Part shown: positions 38,104 through 44,998 of the stretch, piece after piece | Numbering within the stretch: position 1 is the first letter of the stretch | Layout of the letters: every line of letters begins with the position of its first letter | Origin: Gammaproteobacteria bacterium | Lineage (GTDB): Bacteria > Pseudomonadota > Gammaproteobacteria > SZUA-152 | Length of the DNA: 44,998 nt | Direction: 5' to 3' | Assembly (NCBI GenBank): GCA_011321815.1 | Contig: DROS01000091.1 | Location: 1-44,998 of the forward strand | Program-made: the position numbers and the translations under genes | The notes under the pieces: generated by a model | The model's input: only the letters and a program-made list of their open reading frames with translations | Database searches by the model: none | What the model was told of the DNA's origin: nothing

Positions 38104-38287
38104 GGTTTCTTTCTATTGTAACCAAAAAAGAAAGGAACTCTGTCGGATAAAACACAGAGCCCCTTCTGTTTTTTATGTGGGTTTATCCACATATCAGGTT
38201 AGGCGTAAAACAATGCCTGTACTTCATGGTGTTGCTTGCGCAACATGCGCCCGGTGTCAGGCGCGGGTTACAGCGAGTTGCACTGGT
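38104..38287. other. Hairpin-rich noncoding stretch
   Basis: Short perfect hairpins include CTCTGT/ACAGAG (38138-38143, 38154-38159) followed by TTCTGTTTTTT, TGTTGC/GCAACA (38230-38245) and GCGCC/GGCGC (38247-38264). The last two lie just past the stop of the - strand Gly/Met gene. No gene is visible. Confidence 0.4.
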
Positions 38288-38464
38288 TTACATACCACCG
38301 CCCATACCACCGCCGCCGCCCATGCCGCCGCCGCCCATGCCGCCGCCACCGCCGCCGCCCATGCCACCGCCACCACCACCGCCCATGCCGCCGCCGCCCA
38401 TGCCACCGCCGCCGCCACCGCCCATACCGCCACCGCCCATACCACCGCCTTGTCCCATACCCAT
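38288..38464 (-). CDS. Small glycine/methionine repeat protein
   Basis: This 58-residue frame contains only Gly and Met apart from one Gln, in a pattern of one Met after every three to seven Gly. ATG 38464 has GAGGAG eight bases ahead; an ATG at 38479 would add MRRFI. The opposite strand has an open proline-rich frame over the same DNA. Several Met codons, however, read ATA (Ile) there while staying ATG on this strand, and the ribosome site is on this strand. Similar short GGM tracts form the flexible C-terminal tail of GroEL, and the S8 protease at 31091 ends in a related tail. Met-rich tracts can also bind copper. Function is unknown; expression is not proven. Confidence 0.55.
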   Translation of the reverse strand: MGMGQGGGMGGGGMGGGGGGGMGGGGMGGGGGGGMGGGGGGGMGGGGMGGGGGMGGGM

Positions 38465-38502
38465 AATAAATCTCCTCATTTACATATTAATAAAATTTAA
38501 GG

Positions 38503-38536
38503 TGCGCTCACTAAATTCAGTAAATTAGTGAGCGCA
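38503..38536. terminator. Perfect 12-bp hairpin ahead of the Gly/Met gene
   Basis: TGCGCTCACTAA (38503-38514) pairs with TTAGTGAGCGCA (38525-38536), and TTTT follows on the + strand. On the - strand it would form a leader hairpin about 40 bases before the Gly/Met start codon. Either a + strand terminator or a 5' leader structure. Confidence 0.5.
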
Positions 38537-39706
38537 TTTTCAGCCAGAAACAACATTGGCTTTGCGCTGCTTATCACTTGATACCGGGTGATAAACACGC
38601 CAAAAATCTAGCAGTGGGGTAGTTTGTTGTCAATTTTTTGAGCAATTTTTCAAGGCAAAATAATACTTATAACATATTGATTTAAAAAGTATTATCGGAG
38701 TCTTTGCTGCTGGTTTTCCCTGATTCCGCTAAGCTGAAACAGAATTTTTGATCAAACTTTGATCAGTAATCGGATTGATTGCCCGATAAAGAAAGTCTTC
38801 TATAATAAATAACAATATATAGTTTCTTTCTATTGTTGTTGGTGTCTTGGGTAATTTATAAAACCAAGGATTTGGTTCGGGCTTTTGGCGCTGGCAGAGC
38901 ACTCTCTAAAACCCGTTAGCATATGTCACATTTATTTCATAATGCACTAAAAAAAGGCATTTTTCAGGCCTGGAAAAATGCGATGAAATAGTCAGCAGGC
39001 CATGAGTGTTTTAACGCCGTCGTGGAAACAGTGGAAACAAGAGAGCTGTACATCAAGTGATGAACCCGGGTTGGCTAAAAACGCCGGGATCAAATGTCCT
39101 GTGGGAAAATAATACCCAACAGGGACGGTATATTTTTTATTACCCAATTACCTGAATGATATGAATGGGTATGGTTGCAGATAACTTCCAGTTAGGTGAT
39201 TTTTTATATTCTTTCCTGTTTTTCCCGCAGTTTCCTACTATGCTTACCGTATTGTGATATGAATTAAATAGTGTAAAAAATAAGTTATGAAATAAAACCG
39301 AAAACAATCTATTTGTTGTTGGTCTTTTTTTCAGGGTTGCAAATTTTTAATGGAAATCTGAAACCTTTTCACCAGAAATAAATTATAGTGAGAGGTGTGT
39401 ATGCAGGAAATGCACAAAACTGTTTTTAATTAATAATTGTTGCGTTTGTACGGTTTTTTTGATAAAAATGAACGTCTCCCGGGGTAGTGTTAGTGGTCTC
39501 CTCCGGAGGGTTCGCAAGGAGGTGGTAGACGCCTGCTATCAAAGCTTGGTATGGGCATAATTGCAAATACCTATGGCGGTTGTGGTGTCTACTTATTGTC
39601 GTCAATAACAGCGCATGTGTTTGCGCGTTGACTGCACGCTGCTGTGTTCGTGCGCCATGGGATCAGTGGTGGCACCTGTGTGCAGATAATTAAACAAGTG
39701 GGTCAT
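38537..39706. other. Long gene-poor leader upstream of the biosynthetic genes
   Basis: About 1.2 kb of AT-rich sequence without a credible protein gene. It contains a GCATTTTTC/GAAAAATGC hairpin (38957-38981). It also has a possible 10-residue leader frame at 39401-39433 (MQEMHKTVFN) behind AGAGG, and a GC-rich structured piece at 39496-39530 where GTCT and CCTCC pair with GGAGG and AGAC. The promoter of the chorismate-lyase/PKS genes probably lies here. Confidence 0.45.
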
Positions 39707-40318
39707 ATGGATATGAACAAATCAATAAAATGCAACCCGCTTGACAAGTCTGAATCTGGTGAAGGCCCGAAACTGTTGCCACAGAAAAATTTTGTTTCTG
39801 AAGGAACTGAGGTCGTTGTTGAGCAGCCGCTTAGTACATTCCAGCAAATATTGTTAAAGACTGACGGTACGGTGACTGATCTCATTGCACTTTATACCGG
39901 GGAATCCATAAAGGTTAAAAAAGTCGGGCAAAAAATGTTTCTCAGTGATGTGCGTCAGGAATTTTTTTGTCCTCCCGAAACGCCATTGCTTGAAAGAAAT
40001 GTTTTACTTTGCGGTGATAATAAGAATTATCTTTATGCGGAATCTGTATTTGTTTTCGGATTGCTCTCCCGTTCAATTCAATACAAGCTGCTGGAAACGG
40101 ATTGCCCCATAGGGCTGATGTGGAAGGAAGAAAAGCTTGAGACGTACCGCCATATACTTGGCCATAAAACAGAAATTTGTGAAACAGTCTCCGCATATTT
40201 TGACGTGCCCTCTCACACTCCGATTGTGTCAAGGACTTACTCGATTTATCATCAAAGTAAGATTTTAGGTACTATTACAGAAAAATTTCCCGTTACATAT
40301 TTCAGGGAGAATATGTGA
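39707..40318 (+). CDS. Chorismate-lyase-like protein (DUF98 type)
   Basis: The product has 203 residues from ATG 39707; the frame is open upstream to GTG 39644, but no ribosome site supports that start. The sequence LLKTDGTVTDLIALYTGE (about 49-66) opens the fold. ERNVLLCGD (Arg97) and YAESVF (Glu112) follow, then CPIGLMWKEEKLETYR, and RTYSIYHQSKILGTITEKFP near the end with Glu192. This is the pattern of chorismate pyruvate-lyase relatives, including the DUF98 enzyme of mycobacteria, which makes 4-hydroxybenzoate. It stands 630 bases before a polyketide synthase with an N-terminal acyl-AMP-ligase domain, so it may supply its starter acid. Activity is inferred. The gene is AT-rich like the rest of the cluster. 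Confidence 0.75.
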   Translation: MDMNKSIKCNPLDKSESGEGPKLLPQKNFVSEGTEVVVEQPLSTFQQILLKTDGTVTDLIALYTGESIKVKKVGQKMFLSDVRQEFFCPPETPLLERNVLLCGDNKNYLYAESVFVFGLLSRSIQYKLLETDCPIGLMWKEEKLETYRHILGHKTEICETVSAYFDVPSHTPIVSRTYSIYHQSKILGTITEKFPVTYFRENM

Positions 40319-40947
40319 AATGTAAAAAAGAATAAAGCCACCGAAGAGTGCGTTTTCCGGGTTCCGGGTTCCGTGTTTCGGCTGTTGGCCGTGGTAGTCG
40401 CGCCCCTGGGAGAGACAATTTATTTTTCGTTTTGTGATGCGATTTCAGTGTGTTTTGATGTGCTCCCCCAAGCTTCAATTACCGCAAGAATCTATTCGTG
40501 TAATCACCAAAGTAAAATCTTCAAAATTATTGTTTCAGCTCTTTTTTACAGCATGGCGTGCAAACACTGTAAATTTTGAGTTGTTATAAAACAGTTTTGC
40601 AAGAATCTCTGTTGCGCACCCGATTAAAAACATATTATTTGCATGGATGTTTTGCTGGCCTGCTGATATTGAGGCGTATCACGCGCATGGATGAATGGGA
40701 TTGGTTATTCAGTCTGTTGGGGGGCGGCTGTATTTTTGAAGCATGCGGCTCCCGAAAAAATTACATTGACGAACATGATTCTGCGAGCTTTACTTCGGGA
40801 CTATTGGTAAATGAGTAAAAATCATCGAAAAGAAAAGTGCCATAGGTCTATGTCGCCAGAAAAATACACTATGTCCATAGTCAATGTATTTAACCGGCCA
40901 GATTAATTTTAAAAAAAGATTTCCATTGCGCATTTCAGGGAGGTGAT
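40319..40947 (+). pseudogene. Decayed pieces of a second chorismate-lyase-like gene
   Basis: Two stretches match the end of the preceding gene. 40441-40540 reads ISVCFDVLPQASITARIYS followed by CNHQSKIFKII, against VSAYFDVPSHTPIVSRTYS and IYHQSKILGTI. 40914-40947 matches 40281-40313 at base level up to TTCAGGGAG just before the next start. A possible weak trace of the front part (LQESLLRT against FQQILLKT) lies near 40590. The pieces are separated by unrelated sequence and stops. A partial tandem duplication that then decayed explains this best. The last piece supplies the ribosome site of the PKS gene. Confidence 0.6.
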
Positions 40948-43900
40948 ATGAAAAGGGAAAATCCATTGCAGGGTTTGTCTTCCGGGGCCTGCGACTCATT
41001 TATTGATCTTTGCAAGCGCTACCCTGTGGAGAAACGGTTTATTTTTCATGGGGAAAAAAATTCCTCGGTATTCCTTTCCGGAGAAGACCTTTTTGACAAG
41101 GTGAGCGGGCTGGGTTCAGCTTTACAGAAAAAGGTTAAACCACAAGAAAAAGTATTGATTGTGTTTCCGCAGGGGTTGGAATATATATACGGCCTGCTGT
41201 CATGTTTTCATGCAAATGTTATAGCAATACCTGTTCCTGTAACAGATACTACACAGATCGGGATTTTAACCGATAAAATTACATCCTTATTGAAGGACTG
41301 CCAAGCGACAGTTCTTTTGACAAATACGGAAACCAGAAGAAGTCTTGAAGATAGCCCGGTTCTGCATTCAGTAACGATGCTGGATATTGATTCTCTTGCG
41401 CAGAGTGAAACCAAAGAGGGCAGGGAAAGAGAAAAAACCCCGGATGATATTGCATTATTGTTTTACACCTCCGGTTCAACATCACAGCCCAAAGGGGTTA
41501 TTGTCAGCCATGGCAGCCTTATGTCACAGGCGAAAACGGCTGCCGGCCAGTGGGCCGTAGAGCAAAACAGTTGCATCGTTTCATGGATGCCACAATTCCA
41601 TAATTTTGGGCTTCACCTTGGTGTTCTGGCGCCACTTTTAAAAGGGGCTTCCAGTGTTATTCTTCCTCCTGGCAGTTTTATCAATTCGCCTGGCGACTGG
41701 TTTGGATATGTTGATCAATATCAGGCAACGCATATTGCAGCACCTAATTTTGCTTTTGATTATTGTTGTTCCCTGATTGATCTTTCATCTGTTGGGGATG
41801 TTTCTCTTAAGTCGCTAAAAGCAATTATCAGTGGTGGAGAGGCCAACCGTAAGGAAACGCACGATAATTTTATGCGTAAATTTCGCTGCCTGGGACTGGG
41901 GGAAAACATATTTTGTCCTCATTATGGTTTGTCAGAAATCGGCTCCGTTACAACTAAATCACCTGGTGCGCCATTGCGTTATCTTTCCTTGGACATTGCC
42001 AGCTTAACGCAACATAAAGTCAAATATTCAACATCGGAGAATAATAGTAAACAGGTAGCAAGTTGTGGTGCTTTGGGGGAAGGGCTGGAATTGAGAATCG
42101 CTGACCCTGATACCGGCGTGATTTGTTCTGCGGAGGATATCGGTGAAATATGGTTAAAATCAGACTCCCAATATAGTGGTTATATCAATCAGGATAAAGG
42201 CGCAGAAACTGACTGTACAGCGGTTCTCAACAATATAAAAGACGGGTTCATTCGTACCGGTGATCTGGGGTTTGTTGAAGATAATCATCTCTATATTGTT
42301 GGCCGGGAAAAAGAGGTGATGATCATTCATGGCAAGAACCACCATCCTGTTGATATGGAATGGACAATTAAAAACAGGGTTCCGCAGTTAACGCTGGCCT
42401 CGGCTGTTTTTTCCTGTGATATTTTAAATCAGGAAAGGGTTATTGTGGTGCAGGAAACCGAACAGCTGGATGGGGATGTCCAGTATGCAGGCCTCACCCG
42501 GGAAATATTTTCGGCTGTGTCACAAGTGCATGAAGTGACACTTTATGATGTTGTTCTGGTCAAAAAAGGCAGCATTCCCAAAACCAGTATCGGGAAAATT
42601 CAACGTAAACTTTGCCGCAGTGCGTATTTGGAAAACAACCTGACGATACTTTACCAGTATCGCAATAAAGCTTCAGAAAAAAATGAAGACTCTGCGCCTG
42701 TTGATTCGGCAGTAACAAAATCTGATCTTGAGCTTGTTGATATTTTAAAAAGAGAAATCTTTAACCCTGTTCTTGATGTCGATACCACCTTGTTGGAACA
42801 GGCGTCGACATTTATGGAGCTGGGGGTTAACTCAATTCAATATGTGCGAATTTCCAAAAAAATAGAAGAAGTCTTCAATCTCCTGTTTCAGCCAGTCATG
42901 TTATTCAAGCATTCCAGCTTTCAGGAGCTGGCGCGATATTTGTCAACACAAATAACCGCTGCGAAGCCACAATTACAGGCTGAGCAACACAGTGATTCAC
43001 AACAGACGCAGAAAGAGCATCGTGAATATCCTGAAGAAGTAACACCGTCTTTTTCTTATGATGATGCATGTAATGATGATGTTGCCATCATTGGTATGAG
43101 TTGCCATTTCCCTGGCGGCAGCATTGATCCGGATGCTTTTTGGGAAAATCTTGTTAATGGTAATGACTGTATTACGTCGGTTTCTCACAGCCGACCACAG
43201 ATTAATGATTTCTTTGATAAAAACTATGGTGAAAAATCAGATTCTTTCCCTCGGTGGGGTGGGTTTATTGAAGATGTTGATTGTTTTGACCCGGCATTTT
43301 TTAATATTTCTCCTCTGGAAGCCGAGAGTATGGATCCGCAACAACGAAAGGCGCTTGAGCTGACCTGGAGTGTCATTGAAAGCAGTGGCTACAATCCTCG
43401 CCAGCTGGCAGGCAGTGATGTAGGTCTGTTCATTGGTGCGCATAATGTCGATTATGCAGAACTGGTGATGGCGCAGCCCATGTTGATGGATACCTATGGC
43501 GCCTATCTTGATTCCGGTTTGCATATGAGCATGATTTCAAACCGGGTTTCCCGGTGGTTTGATTTTCATGGTCCCAGTGAGGTGATCAATACTGCCTGTT
43601 CAAGTTCGCTGGTTGCTATTCATCATGCTGTGGAATCTTTGCGCCAGGGTGATAGTTGTATCGCCATTGCCGGGGGAATCAATTTGTTGCTGGCGCCACG
43701 GATTTATCTTGCCTGCCATAATGCAGCCATGTTGTCTGAAGATGGCCGTTGTAAAACATTTGATGAAAAAGCCAATGGCTTTGTGCGTGCGGAAGGCTAT
43801 GGTGCTGTGTTACTCAAGCCTTATGCACAGGCGCTGAGGGATAATGATGTTATCTTCGGTGTTATCAAAGGCGTGGGTATTAACCATGACGGGCATTCAA

Positions 43901-44998
43901 ATTCACTCCGGGCGCCTAATCTCAAGGCTCAAAAACAACTTGTACAATCGGCCTATGAAGAGTCGGGGGTTGCGCCAGAAACCATCAATTATATCGAGGC
44001 CCATGGTACCGGAACTTCGCTGGGGGACCCCATCGAGGTCCAGGCGCTTTCCGAAGCATTCCAGGCTATCAACCCTGACATCGCGGACAATTTTTGTGGT
44101 TTGGGTACGGTTAAAACAAATATCGGTCATTGTGAGTCGGCTGCGGGTATTGCCGGTCTCATCAAGGTGCTTTTGGCAATGAAACACCAGACTTTGCCCG
44201 GTGTTTTACATTTTGCAGACCTCAATCCGTATATCACATTGCATAAAAGCCCTTTTCATATTGTAGAGCAGACACAAAAATGGCAGCGGCTGAAAAGCCC
44301 GGAGGGAGTGGAAATTCCCCGGCGGGCGGGTGTCAGTTCTTTTGGTTTTGGTGGCGCCAATGCCCATTTGATTGTCGAGGAACCTCCGCTTCCCTGCCAA
44401 AATGAAGCGATAATGGCAGTTGGCAAGCCCAGCCCTGTGCTCATTATATTTTCTGCGCATCAGCAAAAACCATTGCTGGCTTATGCCGAAAAATTTCTCG
44501 GGTTTATTCGCAAATCCTTGGCTGATTCCACACATATAAATTTAGCCGATATAGCCTATACCCTTCAGGTGGGGCGTGAGGCGATGGAGGAACGGCTGGC
44601 CTTTTGGGTGCAGGATATTCCGGCGTTGGCCAGGAAGCTGGAGGCCTTTTTACAGGGAGAAAAAGAAATTGAGGGTTGCTGGAAGGGGAGAGTCAGGCAG
44701 GAATCATCCAGCACGCTTTTGTTTGAAAGTGATGAGGACTCAAAAGAACTCATTCGCCAGTGGACCAGCAAGGGAAAGTTAGAAAAGATTGCACAATTAT
44801 GGGTTCAGGGATGCGCCATTGATTGGGATACATTGCATCGCCCACTTAAGGCACGCCGTATCAGCTTACCGACTTACCCCTTTGCCCGCGAGCGTTACTG
44901 GATTCCCGAAGCCGATGACGTCTTAAACGTCATAAACCAGCCGGCAACAATCCTGCACCCCCTGCTGCACACCAACACTTCAGACCTTGCCGGTCAGC
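40948..44998 (+). CDS. Polyketide synthase, trans-AT type, N-terminal part (FAAL-ACP-KS-DH..., runs off the window)
   Basis: From ATG 40948 behind AGGGAGGTGAT the frame is open for 1350 codons to the window edge. Residues about 1-575 are an acyl-AMP-ligase domain of the FAAL type, with YTSGSTSQPKG at 173, APNFAFDYC, RTGDLGF near 438 and a C-terminal KGSIPKTSIGKIQR. An ACP follows with the phosphopantetheine Ser629 in LGVNSIQ. The KS begins at about 710 and has Cys884 (TACSSS), His1019 (EAHGTGT) and His1061 (NIGHCES). After the KS there is only a linker ending LPTYPFARERYW, with no acyltransferase, so malonyl units must come from a separate AT. HPLLHTN at 1337 begins a dehydratase. The loading acid may be a fatty acid or the product of the lyase upstream. 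Confidence 0.92.
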   Translation, partial: MKRENPLQGLSSGACDSFIDLCKRYPVEKRFIFHGEKNSSVFLSGEDLFDKVSGLGSALQKKVKPQEKVLIVFPQGLEYIYGLLSCFHANVIAIPVPVTDTTQIGILTDKITSLLKDCQATVLLTNTETRRSLEDSPVLHSVTMLDIDSLAQSETKEGREREKTPDDIALLFYTSGSTSQPKGVIVSHGSLMSQAKTAAGQWAVEQNSCIVSWMPQFHNFGLHLGVLAPLLKGASSVILPPGSFINSPGDWFGYVDQYQATHIAAPNFAFDYCCSLIDLSSVGDVSLKSLKAIISGGEANRKETHDNFMRKFRCLGLGENIFCPHYGLSEIGSVTTKSPGAPLRYLSLDIASLTQHKVKYSTSENNSKQVASCGALGEGLELRIADPDTGVICSAEDIGEIWLKSDSQYSGYINQDKGAETDCTAVLNNIKDGFIRTGDLGFVEDNHLYIVGREKEVMIIHGKNHHPVDMEWTIKNRVPQLTLASAVFSCDILNQERVIVVQETEQLDGDVQYAGLTREIFSAVSQVHEVTLYDVVLVKKGSIPKTSIGKIQRKLCRSAYLENNLTILYQYRNKASEKNEDSAPVDSAVTKSDLELVDILKREIFNPVLDVDTTLLEQASTFMELGVNSIQYVRISKKIEEVFNLLFQPVMLFKHSSFQELARYLSTQITAAKPQLQAEQHSDSQQTQKEHREYPEEVTPSFSYDDACNDDVAIIGMSCHFPGGSIDPDAFWENLVNGNDCITSVSHSRPQINDFFDKNYGEKSDSFPRWGGFIEDVDCFDPAFFNISPLEAESMDPQQRKALELTWSVIESSGYNPRQLAGSDVGLFIGAHNVDYAELVMAQPMLMDTYGAYLDSGLHMSMISNRVSRWFDFHGPSEVINTACSSSLVAIHHAVESLRQGDSCIAIAGGINLLLAPRIYLACHNAAMLSEDGRCKTFDEKANGFVRAEGYGAVLLKPYAQALRDNDVIFGVIKGVGINHDGHSNSLRAPNLKAQKQLVQSAYEESGVAPETINYIEAHGTGTSLGDPIEVQALSEAFQAINPDIADNFCGLGTVKTNIGHCESAAGIAGLIKVLLAMKHQTLPGVLHFADLNPYITLHKSPFHIVEQTQKWQRLKSPEGVEIPRRAGVSSFGFGGANAHLIVEEPPLPCQNEAIMAVGKPSPVLIIFSAHQQKPLLAYAEKFLGFIRKSLADSTHINLADIAYTLQVGREAMEERLAFWVQDIPALARKLEAFLQGEKEIEGCWKGRVRQESSSTLLFESDEDSKELIRQWTSKGKLEKIAQLWVQGCAIDWDTLHRPLKARRISLPTYPFARERYWIPEADDVLNVINQPATILHPLLHTNTSDLAGQ

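Follow-up and report, generated by a model that had tools for sequence, protein, structure and literature searches.

A candidate 4-hydroxybenzoate-primed trans-acyltransferase polyketide synthase with a FAAL-type loading ligase in a gammaproteobacterium

Genes at the contig end

The stretch of DNA analysed here, called the window, is the whole of contig C91 (DROS01000091.1; 44,998 bp) of the gammaproteobacterial assembly GCA_011321815.1 (G000), a genome of 3.58 Mb that is 99% complete and lies in 109 contigs. At the right end of the window, a gene for a chorismate pyruvate-lyase-like protein is followed by a long frame that joins an AMP ligase of the fatty-acyl-AMP ligase (FAAL) type to an acyl carrier protein (ACP) and a ketosynthase (KS) (Table 1). 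We suggest, with a probability of about 0.7, that the ligase, ACP and KS form the loading end of a trans-acyltransferase (trans-AT) polyketide synthase (PKS) that starts on 4-hydroxybenzoate.

Table 1. Features of the lyase and synthase genes. Positions are those of the window unless a contig or residue numbering is given.
Feature	Position	Strand	Size, evidence and remarks
Rv2949c-like (PF01947) chorismate pyruvate-lyase	39707..40318	+	203 aa; Pfam, PDB 2nwi, conserved R97/E192, congener orthologues
Spacer between lyase and ligase	40319..40947	not applicable	holds decayed copies of ligase 5' and lyase 3' parts
FAAL-type AMP ligase domain	40948..42672	+	575 aa; Pfam/NCBIfam, PDB FAALs, tree; proposed 4-hydroxybenzoate-AMP ligase
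AMP-binding domain	residues 23-412 of frame from 40948		Pfam
DIP2-like AMP domain	residues 456-568 of frame from 40948		Pfam
ACP domain	42751..42942	+	residues 602-665; PF00550, 36.7 bits
Ketosynthase KS1	43075..44214	+	residues 710-1089; PF00109/PF02801; Cys and both His motifs present
RhiE-like KS-MAT linker	44446..44661	+	residues 1167-1238; PF22336, 73.1 bits
Possible dehydratase (DH) domain start, contig-truncated	44956..44998	+	12/14 residues align with 7zma; weak
Tandem trans-AT	C77:21153-23048		Pfam

A chorismate-lyase-like gene had been read at this position from the sequence alone, and the call stands: the product matches PF01947 at 62.5 bits against a curated cut-off of 22 (E 5.9e-17, Pfam). 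The upstream-most opening of the frame is a GTG at 39644, and the next ATG after 39698 is the one at 39707 (MDMN). Since the frames of five congeners start at the equivalent of 39698 (V-x-HMDMN), a start at 39707 is reasonable. By sequence, the lyase matches 2nwi in the PDB (E 8.3e-13). R97 is kept in 20 and E192 in 19 of 21 aligned rows of UbiC and PF01947 relatives (the UbiC of this genome included), two of which looked misread or misaligned. We take these residues to correspond to the ligand-binding R76 and E155 of E. coli UbiC.

The synthase frame (40948-44997; 1350 aa) runs in the order FAAL-type ligase, ACP, KS and linker, and then off the contig end. Because the window spans all of C91, this truncation is an assembly edge. 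The sequence-only reading had described an acyl-AMP ligase fused to ACP and KS in a synthase without an in-line AT, and both parts hold: the domains lie in one frame, and Pfam found no AT between KS1 and the contig end, where a linker of the trans-AT type (PF22336) is present. Its further statement that the linker leads to a DH is borne out for the linker. The DH depends on the last 14 residues of the frame (HPLLHTNTSDLAGQ), 12 of which align with PDB chain 7zma, a weak hint; none of the DH models gave a match in the window. At the aligned position 7zma presumably has a DH.

The ligase and its relatives

Outside the genus, the best match of the ligase is encoded on a plasmid of Burkholderia glumae (35.9% over residues 6-674, 436 bits). 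The next-best matches reach 325 bits (369 genomes of the class), 314 bits (398 genomes of the phylum) and 317 bits (other plasmid rows, best 30 of 172), scores that come from different programs and allow only a rough comparison. In a tree of 40 sequences, the ligases of the window, of the congener G007, of a third assembly (L027, below) and of B. glumae form one clade (100/100) on a long branch, apart from the 36 other FAAL rows.

Several residues differ as well; features of FAALs are described in eLife e70067 (PMC8460268). The Gln at residue 172, before YTSGS, is kept in 37/37 other FAAL rows and is Phe in the window and Leu in B. glumae. Residue 332, Thr or Ser in 36 of these 37 rows, is Gly in both. 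Residue 325, which directly precedes the Tyr-Gly of the A5 motif, is His in the window and Asn in B. glumae, and none of the 37 others has either; by GrsA-type numbering this residue presumably lines the acyl pocket. At residue 466, another site otherwise fixed in FAALs, Tyr is replaced by His. Among phages, two Acinetobacter records matched (234 bits), and viral contigs gave no relative. No such lyase adjoins the FAAL homologue at any of 37 loci, viewed with flanks of at most 1.5 kb.

On the B. glumae plasmid, the ligase gene is preceded on the same strand by pabB with a pabC-type domain (PF00425, PF01063), pabA (PF00117) and a gene of the AurF family (PF11583, p-aminobenzoate N-oxygenase). 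The nearest relative thus also has genes beside it that would turn chorismate into a para-substituted benzoate, though by a different route. The whole region (L131 15636-38271) is a hybrid nonribosomal peptide synthetase (NRPS)/PKS cluster with the p-aminobenzoate genes, the AurF family gene, a ClpP-type gene and a major facilitator superfamily exporter. The ClpP-type gene might, as a guess, be a self-resistance copy.

Junction, remaining cluster and history in the genus

The lyase-ligase pair occurs in three assemblies: the window, L027 and L028 (G007, JAADIL010000221.1). L027 1-4681, a contig of 4,681 bases, aligns over its full length with window 38442-43129 (97.4%); its place in a Cyclobacteriaceae metagenome-assembled genome is probably a binning error. 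Of the other 11 genomes of the genus, only G007 holds a ligase closely related to that of the window (75%), and in G007 the two genes share four bases, GTGA, at the lyase stop and the ligase start. In the spacer of the window, positions 40326-40428 align with the 5' end of the ligase gene (65/104) and 40433-40538 with the 3' part of the lyase gene (67/106), with 0/1000 shuffles as good in each case. Positions 40865-40942, before the ligase start, resemble the lyase end less surely (7/1000). Two further comparisons of the second part of the spacer gave nothing beyond chance (420 and 121 of 1000 shuffles as good), and no origin was recognised for ~40539-40864. On these alignments, the spacer carries a decayed copy of the lyase-ligase junction. 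Since one stretch of G007 (L028 10581-10634) also aligns to both window junctions, the ancestor of the window probably had the overlap too.

Searching the same genome with the large protein gave KS regions on C23, C77, C9 and C53, plus single KS-like genes. C77 opens inside a PKS frame with KS-ECH (ECH, enoyl-CoA hydratase type), continues as ECH-ECH-ACP-ACP-KS-ACP-KS-ACP, and then encodes an FG-GAP/UnbV protein, KS-DH-ACP-TE (TE, thioesterase), an O-methyltransferase, a sulfotransferase, a 3-hydroxy-3-methylglutaryl (HMG)-synthase-like protein, a tandem AT and a phosphopantetheinyl transferase (PPTase), beyond which lie frames taken as sucA, sucB and lpd. Like the HtrA-type protease and Hsp20 below, the HMG synthase, sucA, sucB and lpd were named by eye from sequence. 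PF22336 follows KS1 and all four C77 KSs, and those proteins have no AT match in Pfam. The four C77 KSs all carry the Cys and both His motifs, and a reading of them as inactive was dropped. We also rejected the idea that the last C77 module holds a degenerate AT ahead of its DH (no Pfam match in that stretch; blastp to the C77 AT, E 0.08); against the C9 PKS, the same stretch gave E 0.006 over 43 residues.

The window synthase very probably continues on C77. In G002, G003, G006 and G009, a C77-type PPTase (78-83% identical to that of C77) directly follows the lyase, and then comes a sucA-like gene, with no synthase between; in G006 the left flank of the lyase also matches the window, with protease (HtrA-type) and Hsp20 genes. 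In G007, C183 carries the lyase and ligase, and C180 a C77-like end through PPTase and sucA, with a last PKS protein that is 77% identical to its C77 counterpart. The adjacency in the congeners without the synthase and the G007 contigs thus indicate that, in G000 and G007, the cluster lies between lyase and PPTase.

The C77 methyltransferase is similar to small-molecule O-methyltransferases, among them several with phenols as substrates. The G007 cluster has a second O-methyltransferase and a 397-aa hydroxylase-like protein, whose solved relatives include Rv3094c (3e-40), 3-HSA hydroxylase (4e-31) and p-hydroxyphenylacetate hydroxylase C2 (1e-18), among others. These tailoring genes fit a phenolic product, though they could also act on the polyketide part. 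In the part of the window cluster in hand (C91 and C77), no hydroxylase was found.

PF01947 matches above 60 bits occur in 11/96 genomes searched, G000 included. Within the genus, the lyase is present in 6/12 genomes (G000 and 5 of the 11 others) and the PPTase in the same six; because several genus genomes are incomplete (73-86%), single absences are weak. Weak PF01947 matches were rejected as extra lyases, as those checked (G001, G002, G003, G005 and G006) coincide with UbiC. In trees of the sucA-type gene, the six lyase carriers fall together (99/98; 10 genomes, the other two without a match), as do the four synthase-less genomes (100/100; 9 genomes, G008 left out). How G000, G007 and the synthase-less clade branch is poorly supported (48 at the root). 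We compared the bases after the lyase stop of these four genomes with the window ligase start over 14 positions counted beyond the forced first four. In G002 and G006, 11/14 are alike (equalled at 2e-5 and 4e-5 of the offsets in the window), in G003 9/14 (0.0014) and in G009 8/14 (0.010); against the G007 ligase start there was no clear likeness (5 to 8 of 14). This pattern suggests that the synthase was lost in the synthase-less clade.

Some further observations concern the same regions. The FG-GAP/UnbV-ASPIC repeat protein inside the PKS cluster (L022 10827-12887, on C77) has 686 aa, and G007 has no such frame there. For the G007 PPTase (L086 1501-2250), the genome search reports a TGA inside the match, yet the listed 249-aa frame is open; perhaps the stop is a late one. 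Upstream of the lyase, a stretch that lies between it and Hsp20 (38122-38863) has no clear gene and contains CCGCCGCCGCCCATG-type tandem repeats. This stretch aligns at ~69-79% to the corresponding position in G002, G003, G006, G007 and G009, and has no match in Rfam. C23 is a separate cluster, since it has a ligase-like gene and KSs of its own as well as relatives of the AT and HMG-synthase-like genes of C77. Its ligase-like gene (L026 12220-13653) and the relatives in G006 and G009 (L080, L081) match the window ligase no further than about residue 455. The ATP-binding motif TSGSTxxPKG is absent from the C23 and G009 genes, and the frames stay open. Genes of this type are perhaps an inactive FAAL kept by selection.

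Starter unit and comparison with known systems

In the pathway that we propose, the PF01947 lyase would split chorismate into 4-hydroxybenzoate and pyruvate, and the ligase domain would make 4-hydroxybenzoyl-AMP and load the fused ACP. KS1 would then extend the starter, and the malonyl units would be supplied by the separate tandem AT, a gene present on C77 and presumably linked to the window. The ECH-type domains and the HMG-synthase-like gene suggest beta-branching in later modules. The line would terminate in the thioesterase. Tailoring of the product, possibly of its phenol, is probably the task of the O-methyltransferase and sulfotransferase. The sequence-only reading had sketched the core of this route, from lyase through 4-hydroxybenzoate and ligase to a trans-AT synthase. 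The gene overlap, the ligase clade, the tailoring candidates and the separate tandem AT have strengthened it, and the selection on the lyase described below has weakened it. Somewhat better than an even chance, in our estimate, is the broader proposal that the distinct FAAL-fold clade loads chorismate-derived para-substituted benzoates for trans-AT lines and has been paired with different supply routes at least two times, namely with a DUF98 lyase giving 4-hydroxybenzoate here and with p-aminobenzoate synthase and an AurF family oxygenase on the Burkholderia plasmid.

It is unlikely, but deserves weight, that the ligase is an ordinary FAAL loading a fatty acid and that its lyase neighbour is kept for another purpose. 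The ligase is FAAL-like, as had been read from the sequence: its closest solved relatives in the PDB are FAALs, the FAAL insertion region (placed by eye) is intact and similar in length to that of 3kxw, and most of its best NCBIfam matches are fatty-acid--AMP ligases, though below their own cut-offs. Moreover, the lyase is conserved in G002, G003, G006 and G009 with no adjoining synthase. Over the six pairs of these four congeners its dN/dS is 0.09-0.12 (0.05-0.07 for the sucA-like gene). Since this is purifying selection where the synthase was not found, the lyase has another use and is not dedicated to the synthase, and the adjacency of lyase and ligase alone proves little. Against a fatty-acid starter stand the lyase-ligase overlap in G007 with its decayed trace in the window, the replacement of the FAAL-typical Gln and Thr/Ser, and the grouping of the ligase with that of B. 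glumae, beside p-aminobenzoate genes, and not with the 36 other FAAL rows. The same relative lends some weight to a less likely alternative, namely that another benzoate is loaded, for example ring-hydroxylated or O-methylated 4-hydroxybenzoate or p-aminobenzoate; the hydroxylase-like protein and two O-methyltransferases of G007 and the one O-methyltransferase of the window cluster point the same way. However, it is a chorismate lyase that adjoins here, not pab genes, ring tailoring may follow assembly, and the part of the window cluster in hand shows no hydroxylase. It is very improbable that the 4-hydroxybenzoate from the lyase goes into ubiquinone and that the gene is no more than a neighbour of the cluster. 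Its persistence in four congeners without the synthase would fit, but UbiC (PF04345) is present in 12/12 genus genomes, so ubiquinone needs no PF01947 lyase, and we rejected this role. Nor was the PF01947 lyase found in 6/12 of these genomes (several of them 80-85% complete), the matches in G001 and G005 being UbiC.

Other points also tell against a 4-hydroxybenzoate starter. The only NCBIfam chorismate lyase model that the lyase matches, the equivalog NF037993 (cyanobacterial chorismate lyase), gives 36.7 bits against a cut-off of 175, which makes the protein a relative and not an equivalog member, and its AlphaFold model is unusable (mean pLDDT 33.7). Both arms of the ligase clade are long and some attraction is possible, though the pairwise score agrees. 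Benzoate genes lie near only the B. glumae ligase among six plasmid neighbourhoods viewed (the other five flanks were shorter), and this ligase is 36% identical, with a substrate that is itself a prediction. In Pfam, the G007 hydroxylase-like protein has only acyl-CoA dehydrogenase domains. Finally, we infer the join of C91 to C77 across an assembly gap, like the gap between C183 and C180.

If the 4-hydroxybenzoate starter is correct, the ligase clade would give a signature by which trans-AT lines with aryl starters could be recognised from sequence. Such lines may at present be annotated as having fatty-acid starters, since their ligase scores as a FAAL. The lyase and ligase-ACP would also be a testable pair for how a fatty-acyl pocket became a benzoate pocket, and the genus would offer a series in which the cluster is present, or absent with the lyase and PPTase kept.

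With FAALs, the ligase shares the fold (by sequence), the insertion region and the fusion to an ACP; it differs at residues 172, 325, 332 and 466 and falls in a separate clade. In the B. glumae NRPS/PKS (NZ_CP100299.1, WP_257835445.1), the ligase of the same clade is likewise fused to an ACP, RhiE-like linkers follow the KSs, and upstream genes appear to make a chorismate-derived para-substituted benzoate. There, however, the supply would run through pabB-pabC, pabA and the AurF family oxygenase, an AT is fused in front of the ligase, and condensation and adenylation domains follow. The logic of lyase, ligase and synthase also resembles that of mycobacterial phenolic glycolipids, for which excerpts of PMC7205293 describe neighbouring genes whose products make p-hydroxybenzoic acid (Rv2949c), activate it (FadD22) and elongate it (Pks15/1). 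In that route ligase and synthase are separate genes, whereas here ligase, ACP and KS are one protein of a trans-AT line. Pks15/1 is an iterative cis-AT enzyme. Full-text literature searches found no statement of a 4-hydroxybenzoate-primed trans-AT line, most matches being known from listings alone. The elansolid PKS (Chitinophaga) is a trans-AT line. Elansolid reportedly starts on 4-hydroxybenzoate (Dehn, 2011). Thus the product, which the sequence-only reading had thought new, would not be new in kind if elansolid is one. By this starter the two lines would be alike, and both are trans-AT, but the elansolid host belongs to the Bacteroidota; the new part would be the FAAL-derived, ACP-fused clade of benzoate ligases.

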